Part shown: positions 4,611-58,582 of the stretch, piece by piece
How positions within the stretch are numbered: position 1 is the first letter of the stretch
Layout: each line of letters starts with the position of its first letter
NCBI GenBank assembly: GCA_015061315.1
Contig: SUWV01000004.1
Coordinates: forward strand, 1 to 64,000
From: Lentimicrobiaceae bacterium
GTDB taxonomy: Bacteria; Bacteroidota; Bacteroidia; Bacteroidales; F082
Direction: 5' to 3'
DNA: 64,000 nucleotides
The notes under the pieces: model-generated
The model's database searches: none
What the model was told of the DNA's origin: nothing
Seen by the model: the letters and a program-made list of their open reading frames with translations, nothing else
Position numbers and translations under genes: made by a program

Positions 4611-4947
4611 ATATTTTTAGTTAATATTTATTTACTTTCAAAACAATTCTCATTTTTATGTAATTCTTTAAGTTTTTTTCTTAAAAAGGATTAACATATA
4701 TGCTTTGTGTTATCGAAAACATGCCTACTTATGTCACGAACTTGCACAGATTGGCAGGAAATATCTTGTCCACGAATGGGCGTGAATTATACGCTAATGA
4801 TTTTTATTTCCTCGTATCGCGATGTATTTGCACGTATATTTTCCGAGCTAAACAGGAACTTGGTAGGAACTTGACAAGAAGATGACAGGAAGATGGTAGG
4901 AAGATGGGTACTATGACTTCCGCTTACTTTAGACTTTTGCCATTTGT
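4611..4947. repeat. Intergenic region with CGAATGGGCGTGAATTATACGC element
   Basis: No gene is supported. At about 4773-4848 lies a copy of the degenerate element with CACGAATGGGCGTGAATTAT, ACGCTAATGATTTTTAT and CGTATCGCGATG, also seen at 34366 and 56137. It is followed by AGGAACTTG/GGAAGATG word repeats (4853-4905). Confidence 0.5.
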
Positions 4948-22826: not shown

Positions 22827-23959
22827 ACGACAGAATAAAAAACGAGACTCGCGTCTTGTGGGACAAATGTTTTAGCGAGGAAGACAAACGTTTTGTGGAT
22901 TTTTATTTCGAGAAACGATATAACGAAAATGATAATATCTTTATCGAGAAGGACGGCAAAGTCGTCTCTGCATTGCAGCTCATCTCCTACCCTTTCTCTT
23001 ATTATGGCAAGACGATAGGCTGCTCCTACCTATCAGGCTGCTGCACTGATCCTGATTATCGCTCGCAAGGCTTGATGAACGACCTGATCATCAAAGCACT
23101 GAAGCAAGCAAAGAACAACGGCGCTTGTTTCGCAGCTCTTATCCCTGCATCGGAAAGTCTCTTCAACTATTACGCAGGAACTAACTTCGTCACAACTTTC
23201 GATTATTCTAAGATAAGGATTAATTTAAGTCAACAAGTCAACGAGACTACAAGTCAACAAGTGAGCAATTCAGTAATATCAGATTTCCAACAGCTAATAG
23301 CTAATAGCCAACAGCCAACAGCTGATTTTTACGAAGTGTATGAATATTTTAACAATAAAATGAGAGCTCGTAACTGTTGCATCCAGCATAATGAATATGA
23401 TTTTAAAGTCATTACAGACGACTTGGAGTTGTTCGATAATCATCTGCTTGTTGCGAGATATGGAGAAGATATTTGCGGCTTGGCTTTCTGTTATTTAAGA
23501 AACGACGAGATCTATATCAAAGATGTCTTCGCCAAATCGAGTGCTATCTTCAGCGACTTGATATCAGCTGCAGGGAAAATGACGAAAGGCGAAAGTCTAA
23601 AGTCTAAAGCGTCAGAGTCAGTGTCAATAAACATTCTAGTTCCTCCTGTTGCGGGACAGAAGACGCATCGTCTCGGGATGGCGCGTCTTATAGATGCGGA
23701 GACAATGTTACGACTTTACGCGATGTCGCATCCGAAGATGAAAATTGAGATTTCTTTAGTCGATACTATCTTGCCAGAAAACAACGGCACATATTATATT
23801 AATAATGGCACGTTGGATAAGAAAAACTCTATCGGGACAAACGTCGTTGATATTGAGCAGCTGACGCAGGCTTTGTTCGGCTACAAAACAGAAACGCTGC
23901 CCGAGAAGTTAAAAGCGTTTAACAACCAAGCAACGTTTATGAGTCTGATGTTGGATTGA
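22823..23959 (+). CDS. GNAT acetyltransferase with SCP2-like C-terminus and repeat-derived insert
   Basis: This 378-residue protein has an Eis-like plan. The N-terminal GNAT domain includes SYLSGCCTDPDYRSQGLMND, where the acetyl-CoA loop has RSQG. A second GNAT-like half follows, then an SCP2-like C-terminal part (ARLIDAETMLRLYAMSHP). Between the two halves, around residues 135-170, lies a stretch encoded by intergenic-type word repeats (SQQVNETTSQQVS, then QQLIANSQQPTAD). A second short one (ESLKSKASESVS) comes from GTCTAAA words. Both keep the frame and fall where loops are expected, so the enzyme may still fold. The substrate is unknown. Confidence 0.82.
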   Translation: MNDRIKNETRVLWDKCFSEEDKRFVDFYFEKRYNENDNIFIEKDGKVVSALQLISYPFSYYGKTIGCSYLSGCCTDPDYRSQGLMNDLIIKALKQAKNNGACFAALIPASESLFNYYAGTNFVTTFDYSKIRINLSQQVNETTSQQVSNSVISDFQQLIANSQQPTADFYEVYEYFNNKMRARNCCIQHNEYDFKVITDDLELFDNHLLVARYGEDICGLAFCYLRNDEIYIKDVFAKSSAIFSDLISAAGKMTKGESLKSKASESVSINILVPPVAGQKTHRLGMARLIDAETMLRLYAMSHPKMKIEISLVDTILPENNGTYYINNGTLDKKNSIGTNVVDIEQLTQALFGYKTETLPEKLKAFNNQATFMSLMLD

Positions 23960-25580: not shown

Positions 25581-26597
25581 TTGATAATGAAAATATCTAA
25601 CAAAATATTATTTACGGCATTTGTGGTTATATTATTGATAATATTGACCTTATCTATTCTCGGCATTTTCTTGATGAAGGAAAGAGACATTGTTTTGCAA
25701 GGACAGATTGAAGCTGAAGAATATAATATTTCAGGTTTGTTGCCTGGAAGGATTGAAGAGATATATGTCGAAAAAGGACAGCATGTAAAAAAAGGCGACA
25801 TCTTAGTACATATTATCTCTAATGAAGTTATTGCTGAATATGAAGCTCAGAAATCGTTGGAGAAAGCAGCTAAGCTACAGAGCGAGAAACTCGACTCAGG
25901 CTCACGTAAGGAATTGGTTTCCATTGCCAAGGAATTATGGGACGGCACTAAAGCCGATTTAAACTTAGCAAAAACGACTTACGAAAGAATATCCGCCTTG
26001 TATGAAGATTCTATCGTCAGCCAGCAGCGCAGAGATGAAGTCGAGGCAATTTACAAGTCAGCATTGGCAGCTGAACGTGCTGCATATCATCAATATAAGA
26101 TTGCTAAAGAAGGTGCGCAGGAACAAGATAAAGCATCGGCAAAAGAGATGGCAAAAGCTGCTCGAAGTAACGCCGAAGTCGTGAAGGCACTGCTGAAAGA
26201 CTCAAAACTCGCAGCTCCTATTTCTGGACAGGTAGCTACTATAGCATTGAACAAAGGAGAGTTATCGTCGATAGGTACTTCCATCATGACCATTGTCGAT
26301 ATAGAAAACCCTTATTTAGTCATGAATGTACGCGAGGATTTGTTAAAATATTTTAAGATGGGAAACGACATCTTATGCGAGATACCAGCCTTAGGATTGA
26401 AAGACATTCCTTTCAGCATCAACTACATATCTCCACTCGGCAGCTTCGCCACATGGAAAGCCACCAAAGACAGCGGCGGCTACGACCTAAGAACATTTGA
26501 AATACAAGCAGTTCCAAAATATAAAATAGAAGACCTACGACCTGGAATGACATGTTTGTTGACAATTGACAATGAACAATTTACAATGAACAATTAA
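25581..26597 (+). CDS. HlyD-type membrane fusion protein
   Basis: The 338-residue periplasmic adaptor has one N-terminal membrane anchor (residues 8-32). A lipoyl-like half motif follows (GLLPGRIEEIYVEKGQHVKK), then a helical hairpin of about 100 residues and the matching second half (KLAAPISGQVATIALNKGEL). It would bridge the ABC-2 permeases to the TolC channel. The last residues (LTIDNEQFTMNN) are encoded by the TTGACAATGAACAATTTAC word repeat that continues past the stop, so the C-terminus has been rewritten by a repeat. It lies 27 nt after the TolC gene. Confidence 0.88.
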   Translation: MIMKISNKILFTAFVVILLIILTLSILGIFLMKERDIVLQGQIEAEEYNISGLLPGRIEEIYVEKGQHVKKGDILVHIISNEVIAEYEAQKSLEKAAKLQSEKLDSGSRKELVSIAKELWDGTKADLNLAKTTYERISALYEDSIVSQQRRDEVEAIYKSALAAERAAYHQYKIAKEGAQEQDKASAKEMAKAARSNAEVVKALLKDSKLAAPISGQVATIALNKGELSSIGTSIMTIVDIENPYLVMNVREDLLKYFKMGNDILCEIPALGLKDIPFSINYISPLGSFATWKATKDSGGYDLRTFEIQAVPKYKIEDLRPGMTCLLTIDNEQFTMNN

Positions 26598-26622
26598 CAA
26601 TTAACAATTAACAATTAACAAT
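26559..26622. repeat. AACAATTAACAATT word array crossing a stop codon
   Basis: Reiterated TTGACAATGAACAATT / AACAATTAACAATTAAC words start within the HlyD coding sequence and continue 25 nt past its stop codon. Confidence 0.75.
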
Positions 26623-26682
26623 GTATAATATGTAATTATCTCATTGACTTATTGTCTTAATGACTTATTGACTTAAAATAAA

Positions 26683-27849
26683 ATGAACAAAACGAATCAT
26701 CATAGTGGATTTTTTGCTGTCGTCAAGAGAGAGTGCGGTATCTTGGTATCGAGGCCTCTGTATCTTTTCACGGCATTGATATTTCCATTATTCGCTTTGT
26801 TTTTCATGACGACGATTTTTGGCAACGGCATGATCGACAGCATTCCTGTAGGCATAGTCGATGAGGATAACAGTACGATGTCGCGTGATATAGAGCGGCT
26901 TTGCTCGGCGGTACCCGAAATTCGTGTGACAGAAAAATTCTCCAACACCGCCGAGGCTCGCGATGCTCTTCTCTCAAAGAAAATATACGGCTATCTCATA
27001 ATACCGCATGACTTCCAGAAAGACGTGGAGGCAAACAGAAACACCACGCTAACACTATGTTATCATTACGCTTTTCTGAGCGTCGGCTCCGAGGTGATGC
27101 AAGGTTTCCTCAACGCATTAAGAATCATAGCTGTCGCTCCATTACAACAGACGACCGACTTCCTCGGTATCGACGACGAGACATTAGAGACGTTGGCATC
27201 GCCCATCAGCATAGCAGCTCATCCTTTATATAACCCTGCCTTAAATTACTCTTCATATCTCACATTCCCTTACTTCTGGGTTCTGTTTCAAATCTTGATT
27301 TTACTTAACATAGCATATTCCTTCGGCATGGATTTCAAAGACATAAGGAAGACAAGAGAATGTCTGAAAGCTGGTAACAATAAAATGCTCAATGTGGTCT
27401 TCGGAAAACTTACACCTTATATATTAATATTTACCGCCATAGCCATCTTCGCCGACGTACTGATGTTCGACATCATGGACTTCGACTTACATGCTAACAT
27501 CGTCTCAATAATAGCAGTCTGTTTTCTGTTCATCATGGCGACATGTTCTGTCTCGCTTTTCCTTTTCTCTATATATCCCAACCTGCCGATTATCATCAGT
27601 TTCATCTCGATGTTCGGCTCGTTGGGAGCCACTTTTGCCGGCGTGACTTTCCCCGTAAACGCGATGTACCCAATCTTCGAAAAATTATCACTGCTCTTCC
27701 CTATCCGTCACTTCGTCGTAATAACCGACTACCTTCGCTATGAAAGCCACGCCTTTTTATATTGCTGGAAATCAGTCTTGATATTAATAAGCTTTAACAT
27801 TCTGATAATAATAGCGAGTTTACTTTTAAAATTAAGAATGAAAAATTAA
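26683..27849 (+). CDS. ABC-2 type export permease (first)
   Basis: The 388-residue protein has one N-terminal membrane helix (LYLFTALIFPLFALFFMTTIF), a periplasmic domain of about 130 residues, and five further C-terminal helices. This is the YhhJ/YbhS-type ABC2_membrane_3 plan. It pairs with the second permease at 27931. Its C-terminus LLLKLRMKN is encoded by AAAATTAAGAATGAA words that continue downstream as an array (27830-27876). No ABC ATPase is encoded in the operon. The exporter would need a distant ATPase or work differently. Confidence 0.87.
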   Translation: MNKTNHHSGFFAVVKRECGILVSRPLYLFTALIFPLFALFFMTTIFGNGMIDSIPVGIVDEDNSTMSRDIERLCSAVPEIRVTEKFSNTAEARDALLSKKIYGYLIIPHDFQKDVEANRNTTLTLCYHYAFLSVGSEVMQGFLNALRIIAVAPLQQTTDFLGIDDETLETLASPISIAAHPLYNPALNYSSYLTFPYFWVLFQILILLNIAYSFGMDFKDIRKTRECLKAGNNKMLNVVFGKLTPYILIFTAIAIFADVLMFDIMDFDLHANIVSIIAVCFLFIMATCSVSLFLFSIYPNLPIIISFISMFGSLGATFAGVTFPVNAMYPIFEKLSLLFPIRHFVVITDYLRYESHAFLYCWKSVLILISFNILIIIASLLLKLRMKN

Positions 27850-27930
27850 GAATGAAGAATTAAGAATGAAGAATTACAAACATCTCATAACTTATTATCT
27901 TATTGACTCATTGACTTGTAGACTTAAAAC

Positions 27931-31516: not shown

Positions 31517-31901
31517 CTTGTAAAAAAGTTAGTTAATAATTAAGTTTTATAAAGTGTTTGTTAAAATTCATGTCTCGCAAATATATAAATATTTTGTCAA
31601 TGATGTAAGGCTTTAATTTATTTTTATCACACTTTATTTATTCAGTTGATTTGGGCGTTCCGGCAAGCCGTCGGGCTTTCCGCTATATCTTTTTCCGCTA
31701 CGCTCCAAAAGGATGCCGCTCCAATCCCTAACGCATTGGCGGCTACTGAAAATAAGTAATATCTTTTGCGTATCCCAACGACGTAATCGTGATGACTACT
31801 GAGACCCAAATCTTCACATCTACATCTTTAACATTTTTTAAGTTAACGGACAACATTAGTTTATAAATCACTATCTTTGCATAACAAATAATTTCAGATA
31901 A
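31517..31901. other. Intergenic region with GC-rich repeat copy B
   Basis: The region holds a CAAATATA (minus TATATTTG) box for the T9SS gene at 31578-31585 and a GC-rich repeat at 31653-31746. A TTTAACATTTTTTAAGTTAACG segment follows, with TATCTTTG at 31872-31879 before the oxidoreductase gene. No gene is seen. Confidence 0.55.
31653..31746 (+). repeat. GC-rich dispersed repeat, copy B
   Basis: GGGCGTTCCGGCAAGCCGTC to TCCAATCCCTAACGC, near-identical to copy A except for the small CAAG change near the start and the TACG/TGCG loop. Confidence 0.8.
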
Positions 31902-33789: not shown

Positions 33790-34191
33790 ATGAACAAACA
33801 AGAATACATTCAAGCCAACAGAGATTGGTTGAAGGCTAAGGCTCAGGAAGATGGCGTCAAGGCTCTTCCTCACGGAATATATTACAAGGTTATCAGCGAA
33901 GGCAAAAACGACGGCGTACATCCATCGCCACGCAGTGTCGTCACGGCACATTACACCGGCTGGACTATCGACGGTAAGGTATTCGACAGCAGCCGCGACG
34001 AGAACGTCCCTATCGCATTCCGTCTTAACGAGTTAATAGAAGGCTGGATCATCGCGATGCAGCAGATGTGCGTCGGCGACAAATGGGAGATATATCTTCC
34101 TGCCGAGATGGCTTACGGCAACTATTCGCAACCAGGAATCCCTGGCGGCTCGACGCTTATATTCGAGATAGAACTGTTCGGGATAGCGTGA
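33790..34191 (+). CDS. FKBP-type peptidyl-prolyl cis-trans isomerase
   Basis: The 133-residue protein is a compact FKBP domain without a signal peptide. It has VVTAHYTGWTIDGKVFDSSR, ELIEGWIIAMQQMCVGDKWE and the usual IPGGSTLIFEIELFGI end. It catalyses proline isomerisation during folding, here in the cytoplasm. It lies 24 nt after the DUF4143 gene. The last about 48 bp of the gene are present a second time at 35189-35236, 1 kb downstream. Confidence 0.92.
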   Translation: MNKQEYIQANRDWLKAKAQEDGVKALPHGIYYKVISEGKNDGVHPSPRSVVTAHYTGWTIDGKVFDSSRDENVPIAFRLNELIEGWIIAMQQMCVGDKWEIYLPAEMAYGNYSQPGIPGGSTLIFEIELFGIA

Positions 34192-34765
34192 GGATGTTTT
34201 TTATCTCCACGTATCGCGATGTATTTGCACGTATATTTTTGGAATCTGAGAAATTGAGAATCTGAAAATCTGAGAATTTATTTCTGCTAAATCCATGAAA
34301 ATCCGTTGAATCCGTGGGAGAATGGATTAAGACCCACAGATGGCACAGATTGACACAGATTATTTTGTCCACGAATGGGCGTAAATTATACGCTAATGAT
34401 TTTTATCTCCACGTATCGCGAGGTATCTGAGCGAATATTTTCCGAGCTTGTCTCGAATGTGATACGAAAGAGGTTTAACCACAGATAAGACAGATTTATA
34501 GAATCGAAAGTTGAGATTTGAAAACTAAAAATTATGCATTGTGAATTATGCATTATAAATTAATCTTGGGCGTTCCGGCTATCGCCGTCGGGCTTTCCGC
34601 TATATCTTTTTCCGCTACGCTCCAAAAGGATGCCGCTCCAATCCCTAACGCGACCTCCCCGATTAAAAATTAAAAGTTCTATTATTGAAAATTTAAGAAT
34701 TTTATGGTGATATAATATATAATGATTTAACTATTGTTAGAGTTCAGGTATTTTTTAATTACGCG
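34192..34765. repeat. Repeat-filled region after the FKBP gene
   Basis: No gene is visible. Contents: a partial CGTATCGCGATG element (34198-34245), AATCTGAGAAT words, a CCGTTGAATCCGTGGG and CACAGATGGCACAGATT segment, a full CACGAATGGGCG element (34366-34447), ATTATGCATT words, and GC-rich repeat copy C (34568-34652). Confidence 0.6.
34568..34652 (+). repeat. GC-rich dispersed repeat, copy C
   Basis: Near-identical to copy A from GGGCGTTCC to CCCTAACGC; the following GCATGGCGGCTGCC part is absent. Confidence 0.8.
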
Positions 34766-35080: not shown

Positions 35081-35347
35081 CAACCTCCTTCTTTGCAAAA
35101 GTATAAAGAAAAATCTTCACTTATACAATTTTAACATTTTTTAACTTTTGTGTTCCTAAATGGAAAGTTAACGGGCAAAAGTACATAATGGCTCGACGCT
35201 TATATTCGAGATAGAACTGTTCGGGATAGCGTGAGGTCCGCGAAATTACGCTAATGTTATCTCTGCGTATCGCGAGTATCGGCACGGATATTTTTAGGAC
35301 TTAACAGTAATGATTGGAAGTTGGAAGGTATGCAGATTTAAGTTATT
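35081..35347. repeat. Intergenic region with duplicated FKBP 3' end
   Basis: Positions 35189-35236 repeat the last bases of the FKBP gene (GGCTCGACGCTTATATTCG through ACTGTTCGGGATAGCGTGAG). A degenerate CGTATCGCGAG element follows (35237-35302). No gene is seen. Confidence 0.75.
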
Positions 35348-36735: not shown

Positions 36736-36819
36736 TTAAAAGTTGAGATTTGAAAACTGAAAGTTGTTAATTGCAAACTGTTAATTGTAAATTGTACATT
36801 GTTAATTGTCAATTATTTT

Positions 36820-36960
36820 GGGCGTTCCGGCTATCGCCGTCGGGCTTTCCGCTATATCTTTGCTCGCTCAACCTCCACCCCGCTTCCAAAATCCCGTCCC
36901 CGTTCCCAAAAGAAGCTCGCAAAGGATGCCGCTCCAATCCCTAACGCATGGAGGCTGCTA
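36820..36960 (+). repeat. GC-rich dispersed repeat, copy D with long variable centre
   Basis: The flanks match the other copies, but the centre is about 50 nt longer and closes with CTTTGC/GCAAAG instead of CTTTT/AAAAG. Confidence 0.8.
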
Positions 36961-37020
36961 TAAAAGTGAAAGGGTAAAATCAGACAATAAGGGATTAGGA
37001 AAAAACATTCAAATATCAAG

Positions 37021-45490: not shown

Positions 45491-45585
45491 AGTAGCCGTC
45501 CTGCGTTAGGGATTGGAGCGGCATCCTTTTGGAGCGTAGCGGAAAAAGACATAGCGGAAAGCCCGACGGCAGAGCCGGAACGCCC
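45491..45585 (-). repeat. GC-rich dispersed repeat, copy E (inverted)
   Basis: Reverse complement of the element: GCGTTAGGGATTGGAGCGGC to GCCGGAACGCCC. The only inverted copy in the window. Confidence 0.8.
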
Positions 45586-45773
45586 AAAGTCAATTCATAA
45601 TTGAAAGTTTAAAGTATTTAAGTTTTAAAGTTTATTTACTCAGATCTCAAGCCCAAAGTCCGTTGTCTATTGTCTATTGTCTATTGTCTTAAAATCCTTT
45701 AACATCTCTCCCACTCTTTCATTAACATTTACGTTAGAAATTGTTAAAAACGTGATTTTGTCGGGGAAAAGTA
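45586..45773. repeat. Word repeats and conserved upstream module of YhcG gene
   Basis: GTTTAAAGTATTTAAG words, then GTTGTCTATTGTCTATT words (45662-45687). The module with CCTTTAACATCTCTCCCACTC and GTTAGAAATTGTTAAAA follows, shared with 18395 and 48061. Confidence 0.65.
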
Positions 45774-56081: not shown

Positions 56082-56269
56082 CGTTACAGAAATAATATTT
56101 TTTTGATTGATTCAAGCACAAATTACACAGATTATATTATCCACGAATGGGCGCGAATTTTACGCTAATGATTTTTATCTACTCATATCGCAGGTATCAG
56201 CGTGGATATAAAACTATACATTGTTAATTGTTAATTGTTAACTGTTAACTATTAATTGTACATTGTTTT

Positions 56270-56364
56270 GGGCGTTCCGGCGAAGCCGTCGGGCTTTCCG
56301 CTATATCTTTTTCCGCTTCGCTCCAAAAGGATGCCGCTCCAATCCCTAACGCAGAGGGGCTGCT
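56270..56364 (+). repeat. GC-rich dispersed repeat, copy F
   Basis: GGGCGTTCCGGCGAAGCCGT to CCAATCCCTAACGC, as copy A with GAAG and TTCG changes in the first and second loops. Confidence 0.8.
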
Positions 56365-57415: not shown

Positions 57416-58582
57416 CTAAACAACGCTTTTCTCAAAAATCTTATCGTAATCTTTATCGTATTGCAACGAATGTATCTCACCATCACAAACAGCGGTAAAA
57501 ACTGAAACAAGTTCTTTCTCGTTCTTGTCTTCGCGAATGTATTGTTTCTTGAATTTTGGTTTTATGGTTTGAGATTCCATTTCTTTGAGCTTGCGTTTCA
57601 AGGTCTTCTCGGCTGTTTCACCGAAAGCTACATGCCACCAATATTTCGCCAAGATTTCTTTCTTAGTGTTATAAATTATGAGATGTACCGCTGGATGCAT
57701 GACCTTATTGCCGTTATGAATCTCAAAATGAAGCGCACGCCCTACAATGTTACCTTGCTCGTTTACAAGAGGAAGAAACTCTGTCATTGACGCTGACTTT
57801 GACATGGACGCATTCAATGCGTCCCTACATGATGTTTGTACGGGCACATTTAATGTATCCTTGGGGACTTTGACTATCGACTCTGACGCTGACTCTGACT
57901 TTGATACCAACTCAGGAACAGACTCAGAACTTATTGACTTGTGGTCTTGTAGTCTTATCGACTTCTCCTCTCGTTGACTTGTTGTCTCGTTGTCTTGTGG
58001 TCTTATTGACTTTTCCTCTCGTCGACTTGTTGTCTCGTTGACTTGTGGTCTTATTGACTTTTCCTCTTGGCGACTTAGTGACTCGGTGACTTGGTGACTT
58101 AGTGACTCGTTGACTTGTTGACTTATTTCAAAAATCTCAACAATTTCCGTTCCTCTCGGCACCTTAATCTCAAACTTATCGCCTTTCTTCTTCCCTATCA
58201 ATGCTTTGGCTATCGGCGAAATAAACGAAATCAAACCTTTTGAGGCATCGGCTTCGTCAACGCCAACAATACGAATGACTTTATCGTTGTACTTAACATA
58301 CATTCCGAAACTGACAACATCGGGATTGGCTTTGGTATTATCAATCAAGACTGCACTGTTGATGCGTTCTGATAAAAGTCGCATCTTTGCATCTAAGTAG
58401 TTTTTAGTCACATAGTTAGAACCAGCGTCTGTCCATTCTTTTTTAAGTGTTTCCATCTCGTCCTGAAGTTTTTTCAATCCTTCCGGCGTGACGTAATTAG
58501 GAGTCCCCGATGGCAAAAAAGCTCTCGGCAACACCATCGGAACTTCTTCCTGATCACCTTCTTTTACAAAACCGCGACTCAT
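57416..58582 (-). CDS. GreA/GreB-like factor joined to a degenerate Nudix domain by a repeat-derived linker
   Basis: The 388-residue protein has three parts. Residues 1-160 resemble GreA/GreB-family transcription factors: YVTPEGLKKLQDEMETLKKE, then a C-terminal FKBP-like part with SPIAKALIGKKKGDKFEI. Residues 160-270 are a linker encoded by word repeats (ESLSHQVTESLSRQEEKSIR and a GGACGCATTCAATGCGTCC palindrome giving RDALNAS). Residues 270-388 look like a Nudix fold (HPAVHLIIYNTKKEILAKYW). The box is degenerate (GETAEKTLKRKLKEM lacks the usual REUxEE), so hydrolysis is doubtful. The fusion is unusual, and the linker suggests repeat-mediated joining of two genes. Confidence 0.75.
   Translation of the reverse strand: MSRGFVKEGDQEEVPMVLPRAFLPSGTPNYVTPEGLKKLQDEMETLKKEWTDAGSNYVTKNYLDAKMRLLSERINSAVLIDNTKANPDVVSFGMYVKYNDKVIRIVGVDEADASKGLISFISPIAKALIGKKKGDKFEIKVPRGTEIVEIFEISQQVNESLSHQVTESLSRQEEKSIRPQVNETTSRREEKSIRPQDNETTSQREEKSIRLQDHKSISSESVPELVSKSESASESIVKVPKDTLNVPVQTSCRDALNASMSKSASMTEFLPLVNEQGNIVGRALHFEIHNGNKVMHPAVHLIIYNTKKEILAKYWWHVAFGETAEKTLKRKLKEMESQTIKPKFKKQYIREDKNEKELVSVFTAVCDGEIHSLQYDKDYDKIFEKSVV
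57790..58130. repeat. GTTGACTTGTTGTCTCG repeat tract inside the GreA-like gene
   Basis: About 340 bp of near-tandem words (GACTTGTTGTCTCGTTGACTT, GACTCTGACGCTGACTCTG) and a perfect palindrome GGACGCATTCAATGCGTCC (57806-57824), all in one open frame of the gene. Confidence 0.8.

Follow-up and report, generated by a model that had tools for sequence, protein, structure and literature searches.

The window, a 64,000-nt stretch of a Lentimicrobiaceae genome (contig SUWV01000004.1), contains six copies of a dispersed element, each lying between called genes (Table 1). As described in an earlier note made from the sequence, their outer sequences are common to all six, copy E is inverted relative to the others, and in five copies the centre reads CTTTT...AAAAG, within a core of 52 nt. 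The centre of copy D is indeed longer and closes with CTTTGC/GCAAAG (CTTTGCGAGC...GAGCGAGCAAAG, a 96-nt core, 44 nt more). It had been presented as the odd one out, but this type of closing proved to be a common subtype in the genome.

Table 1. Copies of the element in the window and features of copy D. The strand given is the structured one.
Feature	Position	Strand	Remarks
Flavo-1 copy A, CTTTT/AAAAG centre, outer stem to CCCAAA	2902..2988	-	below gathering score
Flavo-1 copy B	31650..31734	-	44.5 bits, above gathering
Flavo-1 copy C	34565..34651	-	43.2 bits
Flavo-1 copy D, long centre, CTTTGC/GCAAAG subtype	36817..36947	-	43.3 bits
Flavo-1 copy E, inverted relative to the other five	45503..45588	+	36.6 bits, below gathering
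Flavo-1 copy F	56267..56352	-	43.4 bits
Copy D outer stem, 5' strand GCGTT (not in Rfam model)	36943..36947	-	
Copy D outer stem, 3' strand AACGC	36822..36826	-	
Copy D accessory hairpin CGGC-GATA-GCCG	36828..36839	-	loop varies among copies
Copy D 5' module TTATAGCAGCC and variable spacer	36948..36963	-	in many copies, not all
7-mer tandem array abutting copy D on the 3' side	36756..36816	-	

The element turns out to be an unexceptional member of the known family Flavo-1 (Rfam RF01705), which the earlier note had missed. Four of the six copies (B, C, D and F) score above the gathering threshold over the full model (E ~3-6e-6), and they share its internal-loop sequences and its Bacteroidota host range. 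The whole assembly (hereafter G000; 2.47 Mb in 49 contigs) carries 35 copies, 25 of them above the cut-off; those below it, in the window as in the assembly, are close relatives of those above. The Flavo-1 RNA motif was described by Weinberg et al. in 2010 (PMC2864571); Rfam gives its type as 'Gene; sRNA', and its function has stayed unassigned since. It has been ranked with the most abundant bacterial sRNA families (PMC9029176).

A consensus was drawn from 85 full copies of three sister species, G000 (35 copies), G009 (42) and G027 (8). On the structured strand it consists of GCGTTAGGGATTGGAGCGGCATCCTTT, a variable centre, AAAGATATAGCGGAAAGCCCGACGGC, a loop and GCCGGAACGCCCAAA, preceded in many copies by TAGCAGCC and a spacer of 4-6 nt. 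GCGTT and AACGC form an outer stem and CGGC/GCCG an accessory hairpin, both of which are missing from the Rfam model. Two forms of the centre are common in G000, TTTTGGAGCGnAGCGGAAAA and TTTGCGAGCGnAGTTTACGGAGCGAGCAAA. Copy D has the second of these with an enlarged tip, and three other copies in the genome have tips that are longer still. In one complete genome of family f81 (L143, about 1500-1590), the Flavo-1 tip is a GTGGTCATTTCGACTACGCTCAATGACCAC hairpin resembling another common intergenic repeat, as though it had been captured.

The earlier note had proposed that base pairing is kept under a changing, swappable centre, and this holds in the larger alignment, where the two halves of the centre co-vary, the centres are diverse and still pair, and the outer stem covaries over 118 sites. 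For 51 distinct centres, the run of pairs leading inward from the closing helix averaged 4.98 within centres versus 4.26 between centres, and the mean self-pairing exceeded all of 5000 re-pairings of the halves (p=0.0002, an optimistic value because the sequences are related). A centre of G027 is identical to the reverse complement of one in G000, which means that the hairpin tip was inverted at the DNA level.

The outer stem was assessed on 118 unique sites that were picked, in Bacteroidota genomes and in viral contigs, by means of the CCAAA tail and the inner core. Its five positions pair in 90.5% of cells, versus 31-61% with the partner strand shifted by 1-3 nt, with the proviso that for the bacterial genome-contig sites the search pattern fixes part of the 5' strand; the viral sites are the strongest cases, because they were drawn without a 5'-strand pattern. 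About 15 stem types were found, including GCGTT/AACGC, GCGTG/CACGC, GGCTT/AAGCC, GCGTC/GACGC, GAGTT/AACTC, GTGTT/AACAC, GCATG/CATGC, GCGAA/TTCGC, GCGGC/GCCGC, GGCTC/GAGCC and GCGCA/TGCGC. Of 110 sites, 100 fold better on the Flavo-1 strand than on the complementary one when DNA parameters are used, and 95 when RNA parameters are.

All 85 full copies have genes on both sides, the sole overlaps being with small, doubtful open reading frames, and the TAG stop of three genes is supplied by the GCGTTAG of the element. Tandem arrays of 7- or 8-mers lie on the 3' side of 53-63% of copies, 0-20% having one on the 5' side (shuffled controls, 0); of 67 such arrays, 58 are rich in A when read on the Flavo-1 strand. 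They are not an obligatory part of the element, since some copies stand without them (L032, for example) and many arrays lie away from Flavo-1, as do 19 of the 23 array positions in the window. Degenerate arrays of the ATTGTTA and AAGTCAAC types are abundant there (among them 609-680, 23225-23320, 24837, 26557-26680, 27825-27925, 28561, 57929-58137 and 62501), and sister species have different array units at one and the same junction. At 57416-58582 of the window, an open reading frame with a GreA/GreB domain is far longer than the matched domain and contains an 8-mer array within the open frame.

Other repeats occur in the same neighbourhoods. A dispersed intergenic repeat, CCACGAATGGGCGTgAATTATACGCTAATGATT...CGTATCGCGATGTATTTGC, is found in the window at 4744-4869, 34194-34468 and 56125-56191, near copies C and F. 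Two identical 47-bp direct repeats (34147-34193 and 35190-35236), 1043 bp apart, enclose copy C and a truncated RhuM-like open reading frame, and may mark an inserted segment. Elsewhere in G000, the junction between ftsK and lolA carries a tandem pair of TATACCAAATAGCCTGAAAGGCTTATA..CAGCGTATGGCAAGGTCATACGAA (L024, 1590-1830), and a related palindrome lies upstream of Flavo-1 at L033; these sequences probably constitute another REP-like family of that genome. A RAYT-like Y1 gene (L039, 1375-1938, on G000:C22) stands with GGACACAT..ATGTGTCC palindromes in its flanks (1350-2080), and palindromes similar to them were seen directly 5' of Flavo-1 at L009 and L034.

Within the genus, three of 36 genomes are positive, with 35 (G000), 42 (G009) and 8 (G027) copies; Flavo-1 was not found in the other 33, several of which are at least 97% complete. 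By neighbour-gene identity the three positive species seem closest to each other, so that one acquisition followed by amplification fits the pattern and repeated invasion is not required. Class-wide, Flavo-1 was detected in 106 of 396 genomes. Copy numbers go from one to more than 10, with a ceiling of 11 set by the scan, and reach 10 or more in many of these genomes. Among the named hosts are Flavobacterium, Salinimicrobium, Christiangramia, Chitinophagaceae, Cyclobacteriaceae and Bacteroidales bins. A search of a plasmid collection gave no convincing match. In family f61 (L161, L163 and L164), copies are near-identical across genera and lie in different gene contexts; at L161 and L163 a larger module, roughly 250-300 nt long and containing more hairpins, has the element as its 3' end.

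A few sites are common to G000 and G027, and eight junctions were found occupied in one species and empty in relatives. Four are occupied in G000 (ftsK|lolA, queA|response regulator, the L033 site and recQ|L063 gene) and empty in G009 and/or G027 or in more distant congeners; the other four are occupied in G009 (DTD|hydrolase, L078|GAD, TolC|HlyD and L083|BCAT) and empty in G000, G027, G011 or G017. The extra DNA at occupied junctions often exceeds the element, with tandem arrays and other repeats included, so the exact ends cannot be fixed. These species-specific sites agree with the suggestion in the earlier note of a mobile element or insertion platform; the REP-type TnpA that it named as mobiliser is not supported (see below). 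Two further results count against mobility: no target-site duplication of 4-8 bp was found at any tested offset, and none of the sampled Flavo-1 loci has a gene-carrying centre that would make an autonomous copy.

One alternative is that Flavo-1 is a real RNA that either makes up an sRNA family or acts in cis, in 3' UTRs or between cistrons (as an mRNA stabiliser, for instance), and that is copied because it is useful. Its Rfam type points that way, as do the better folding of one strand, which holds with RNA parameters too, and the near-identity of copies across genera in family f61. Between co-directional genes, the element lies in sense in 34 of 43 cases and in antisense in 9 (p=0.0002), a bias that hints at an effect in RNA. 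Against this stand its absence from 33 of 36 congeners and the differing sites in sister species. In addition, according to a Flavobacterium psychrophilum transcriptome study, Flavo-1 matches lie sense or antisense to transcribed regions, many are untranscribed, and no function was assigned (PMC9723704). An intrinsic terminator is rejected, as the outer stem is followed by CCCAAA with no T run. Altogether we regard a primary role as RNA as unlikely, and the sRNA nature assigned to the family as doubtful.

Flavo-1 also extends into single-stranded-DNA phages that infect gut bacteria. When 50,697 phage records were searched, the 3' half of the element turned up in Microviridae; MG945248 has the full frame, GCGTGAGGGATAGGAGCC...GGCGGATAGCCCGACGGCTTTAGCCGGCACGCCCAAA, and other lineages have divergent versions of it. 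With the searches combined, 23 of the 25 phage records with E<=0.01 are Microviridae, a group that makes up at least 2,890 (about 5.7%) of the records and less than 1% of the bases. The chance of such an outcome by record share is about 7e-27, a figure that ignores near-duplicate records and takes all phages, not host-matched ones, as background. Nearly all microviral copies lie in intergenic gaps, at differing positions, and the coding strand carries about two thirds of them, the opposite strand about one third; such use of either strand relative to genes is a further point against an RNA. The Rfam model misses the microviral copies in all three records tested. Some larger viral contigs carry the element as well; in the scans of viral contigs, sites were counted only if both halves were present, because AGCGGAWAGCCCGAC alone matches mostly by chance. 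A weak match to the 3' half (E=0.05) lies in non-coding DNA of Dulem virus 63, one of the Inoviridae (L625, 1600-1640), where the 5' half is unrecognisable.

Flavo-1 might then be a single-strand replication signal of these phages, used for complementary-strand initiation or primosome assembly, that became dispersed on chromosomes. The phiX174 PAS and the G4 ori are complementary-strand origins of ssDNA phages, and like them Flavo-1 is a structured, non-coding element in microviruses. The enrichment in Microviridae, the almost exclusively non-coding position of the phage copies and a fold conserved with compensatory changes would all suit such a role. In contrast to PAS and ori, Flavo-1 occurs on either strand, in few microviruses (a copy visible to blastn in only about 1% of them), and abundantly on chromosomes. 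Its presence on some larger viral contigs and the lack of host matching in the enrichment background also weaken the case. Elements that use the lagging-strand template show a replication bias, whereas Flavo-1 shows none in three single-contig complete genomes (37 versus 45 copies, with GC skew sampled along the chromosomes and not computed over their whole length). An origin role looks attractive, but fits the mixed strand, the rarity and the missing replication-strand bias poorly, and we consider it improbable.

The mobiliser named in the earlier note would make Flavo-1 a REP moved by a RAYT (TnpA-REP), a Y1 HUH transposase. The likeness to REPs and REPtrons (PMC3733652, PMC6006769) is real, in that Flavo-1 is small, structured, intergenic and multicopy, with one folding strand. 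G000 has two RAYT-like genes, and the best lead in the literature is TnpA subclass 2.6 of the Bacteroidetes, because its REPs are called 'atypical' (PMC6006769). Unlike REPs, Flavo-1 has no GT[AG]G tetranucleotide at the hairpin foot, where the consensus is GCGTTAGGG / AACGCCCAAA; a GTAGCC farther 5' in some copies is not conserved. Y1 genes neither correlate with the element nor are flanked by it: the L039 gene of G000 has its own palindromes and no Flavo-1 around it, RAYT is not matched in G009, G027 and G050 (42, 8 and 17 Flavo-1 copies), and it is present in many congeners without a single copy. In a scan of 38 loci around Y1-type genes, some of them resembling subclass 2.6, Flavo-1 was never matched, and the locus of the single Y1 gene of G009 (C52) is free of it as well; the query for subclass 2.6, an approximate consensus, did retrieve real homologues, none with Flavo-1 in its locus. 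Mobilisation by RAYT is largely refuted, and we hold it to be highly improbable.

Integron attC-like sites were also considered and rejected: the box order is GTT ... AAC on both strands, whereas attC needs 5'-AAC ... GTT-3'.

A repeat that is dispersed in many copies, occupies species-specific sites, keeps a covarying fold on one strand and occurs in ssDNA phages behaves as a mobile DNA repeat. We therefore favour, with a probability of roughly 0.6, the reading that Flavo-1 is non-autonomous mobile DNA working like a REP or a MITE. In the Flavo-1 literature examined, the family is neither described as mobile nor linked to microviruses. MITEs are short, non-coding, non-autonomous DNA transposons, and Flavo-1 is likewise short, non-coding and insertion-polymorphic, with ends that pair together. 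It differs from them in that its terminal pairing spans only 5 bp and covaries between lineages, and in that no target duplication, and no related autonomous element among the sampled loci, was found. Nor does any transposase-like gene recur beside Flavo-1 across genomes.

Such a mobile repeat could work as follows. One strand would fold in three parts: the outer stem (here GCGTT/AACGC), a main hairpin whose internal-loop sequences are conserved and whose tip can be replaced, and the accessory hairpin. A hypothetical enzyme supplied in trans would recognise this fold and place new copies in intergenic DNA, in many cases immediately 5' of a 7- or 8-mer array. The tip sequence would not be read, so that it could drift, expand, be replaced or invert while still closing. 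Three steps of this scheme are what we infer: insertion, not loss, as the cause of the patchy sites, recognition of the fold in its DNA form, and a trans-acting enzyme as the agent of recognition and insertion. More tentatively, Flavo-1 may be one branch of a larger family of mobile ssDNA structures common to Bacteroidota chromosomes and their ssDNA phages, in which an undescribed enzyme would read the outer stem, the internal loops and the accessory hairpin and ignore the tip.

If Flavo-1 is indeed a mobile DNA repeat, many annotated 'sRNA genes' of Bacteroidota would not be RNA genes. To find the enzyme or host factor that would read the fold, one can start directly from the extended structure, the microviral copies and the insertion-polymorphic sites.
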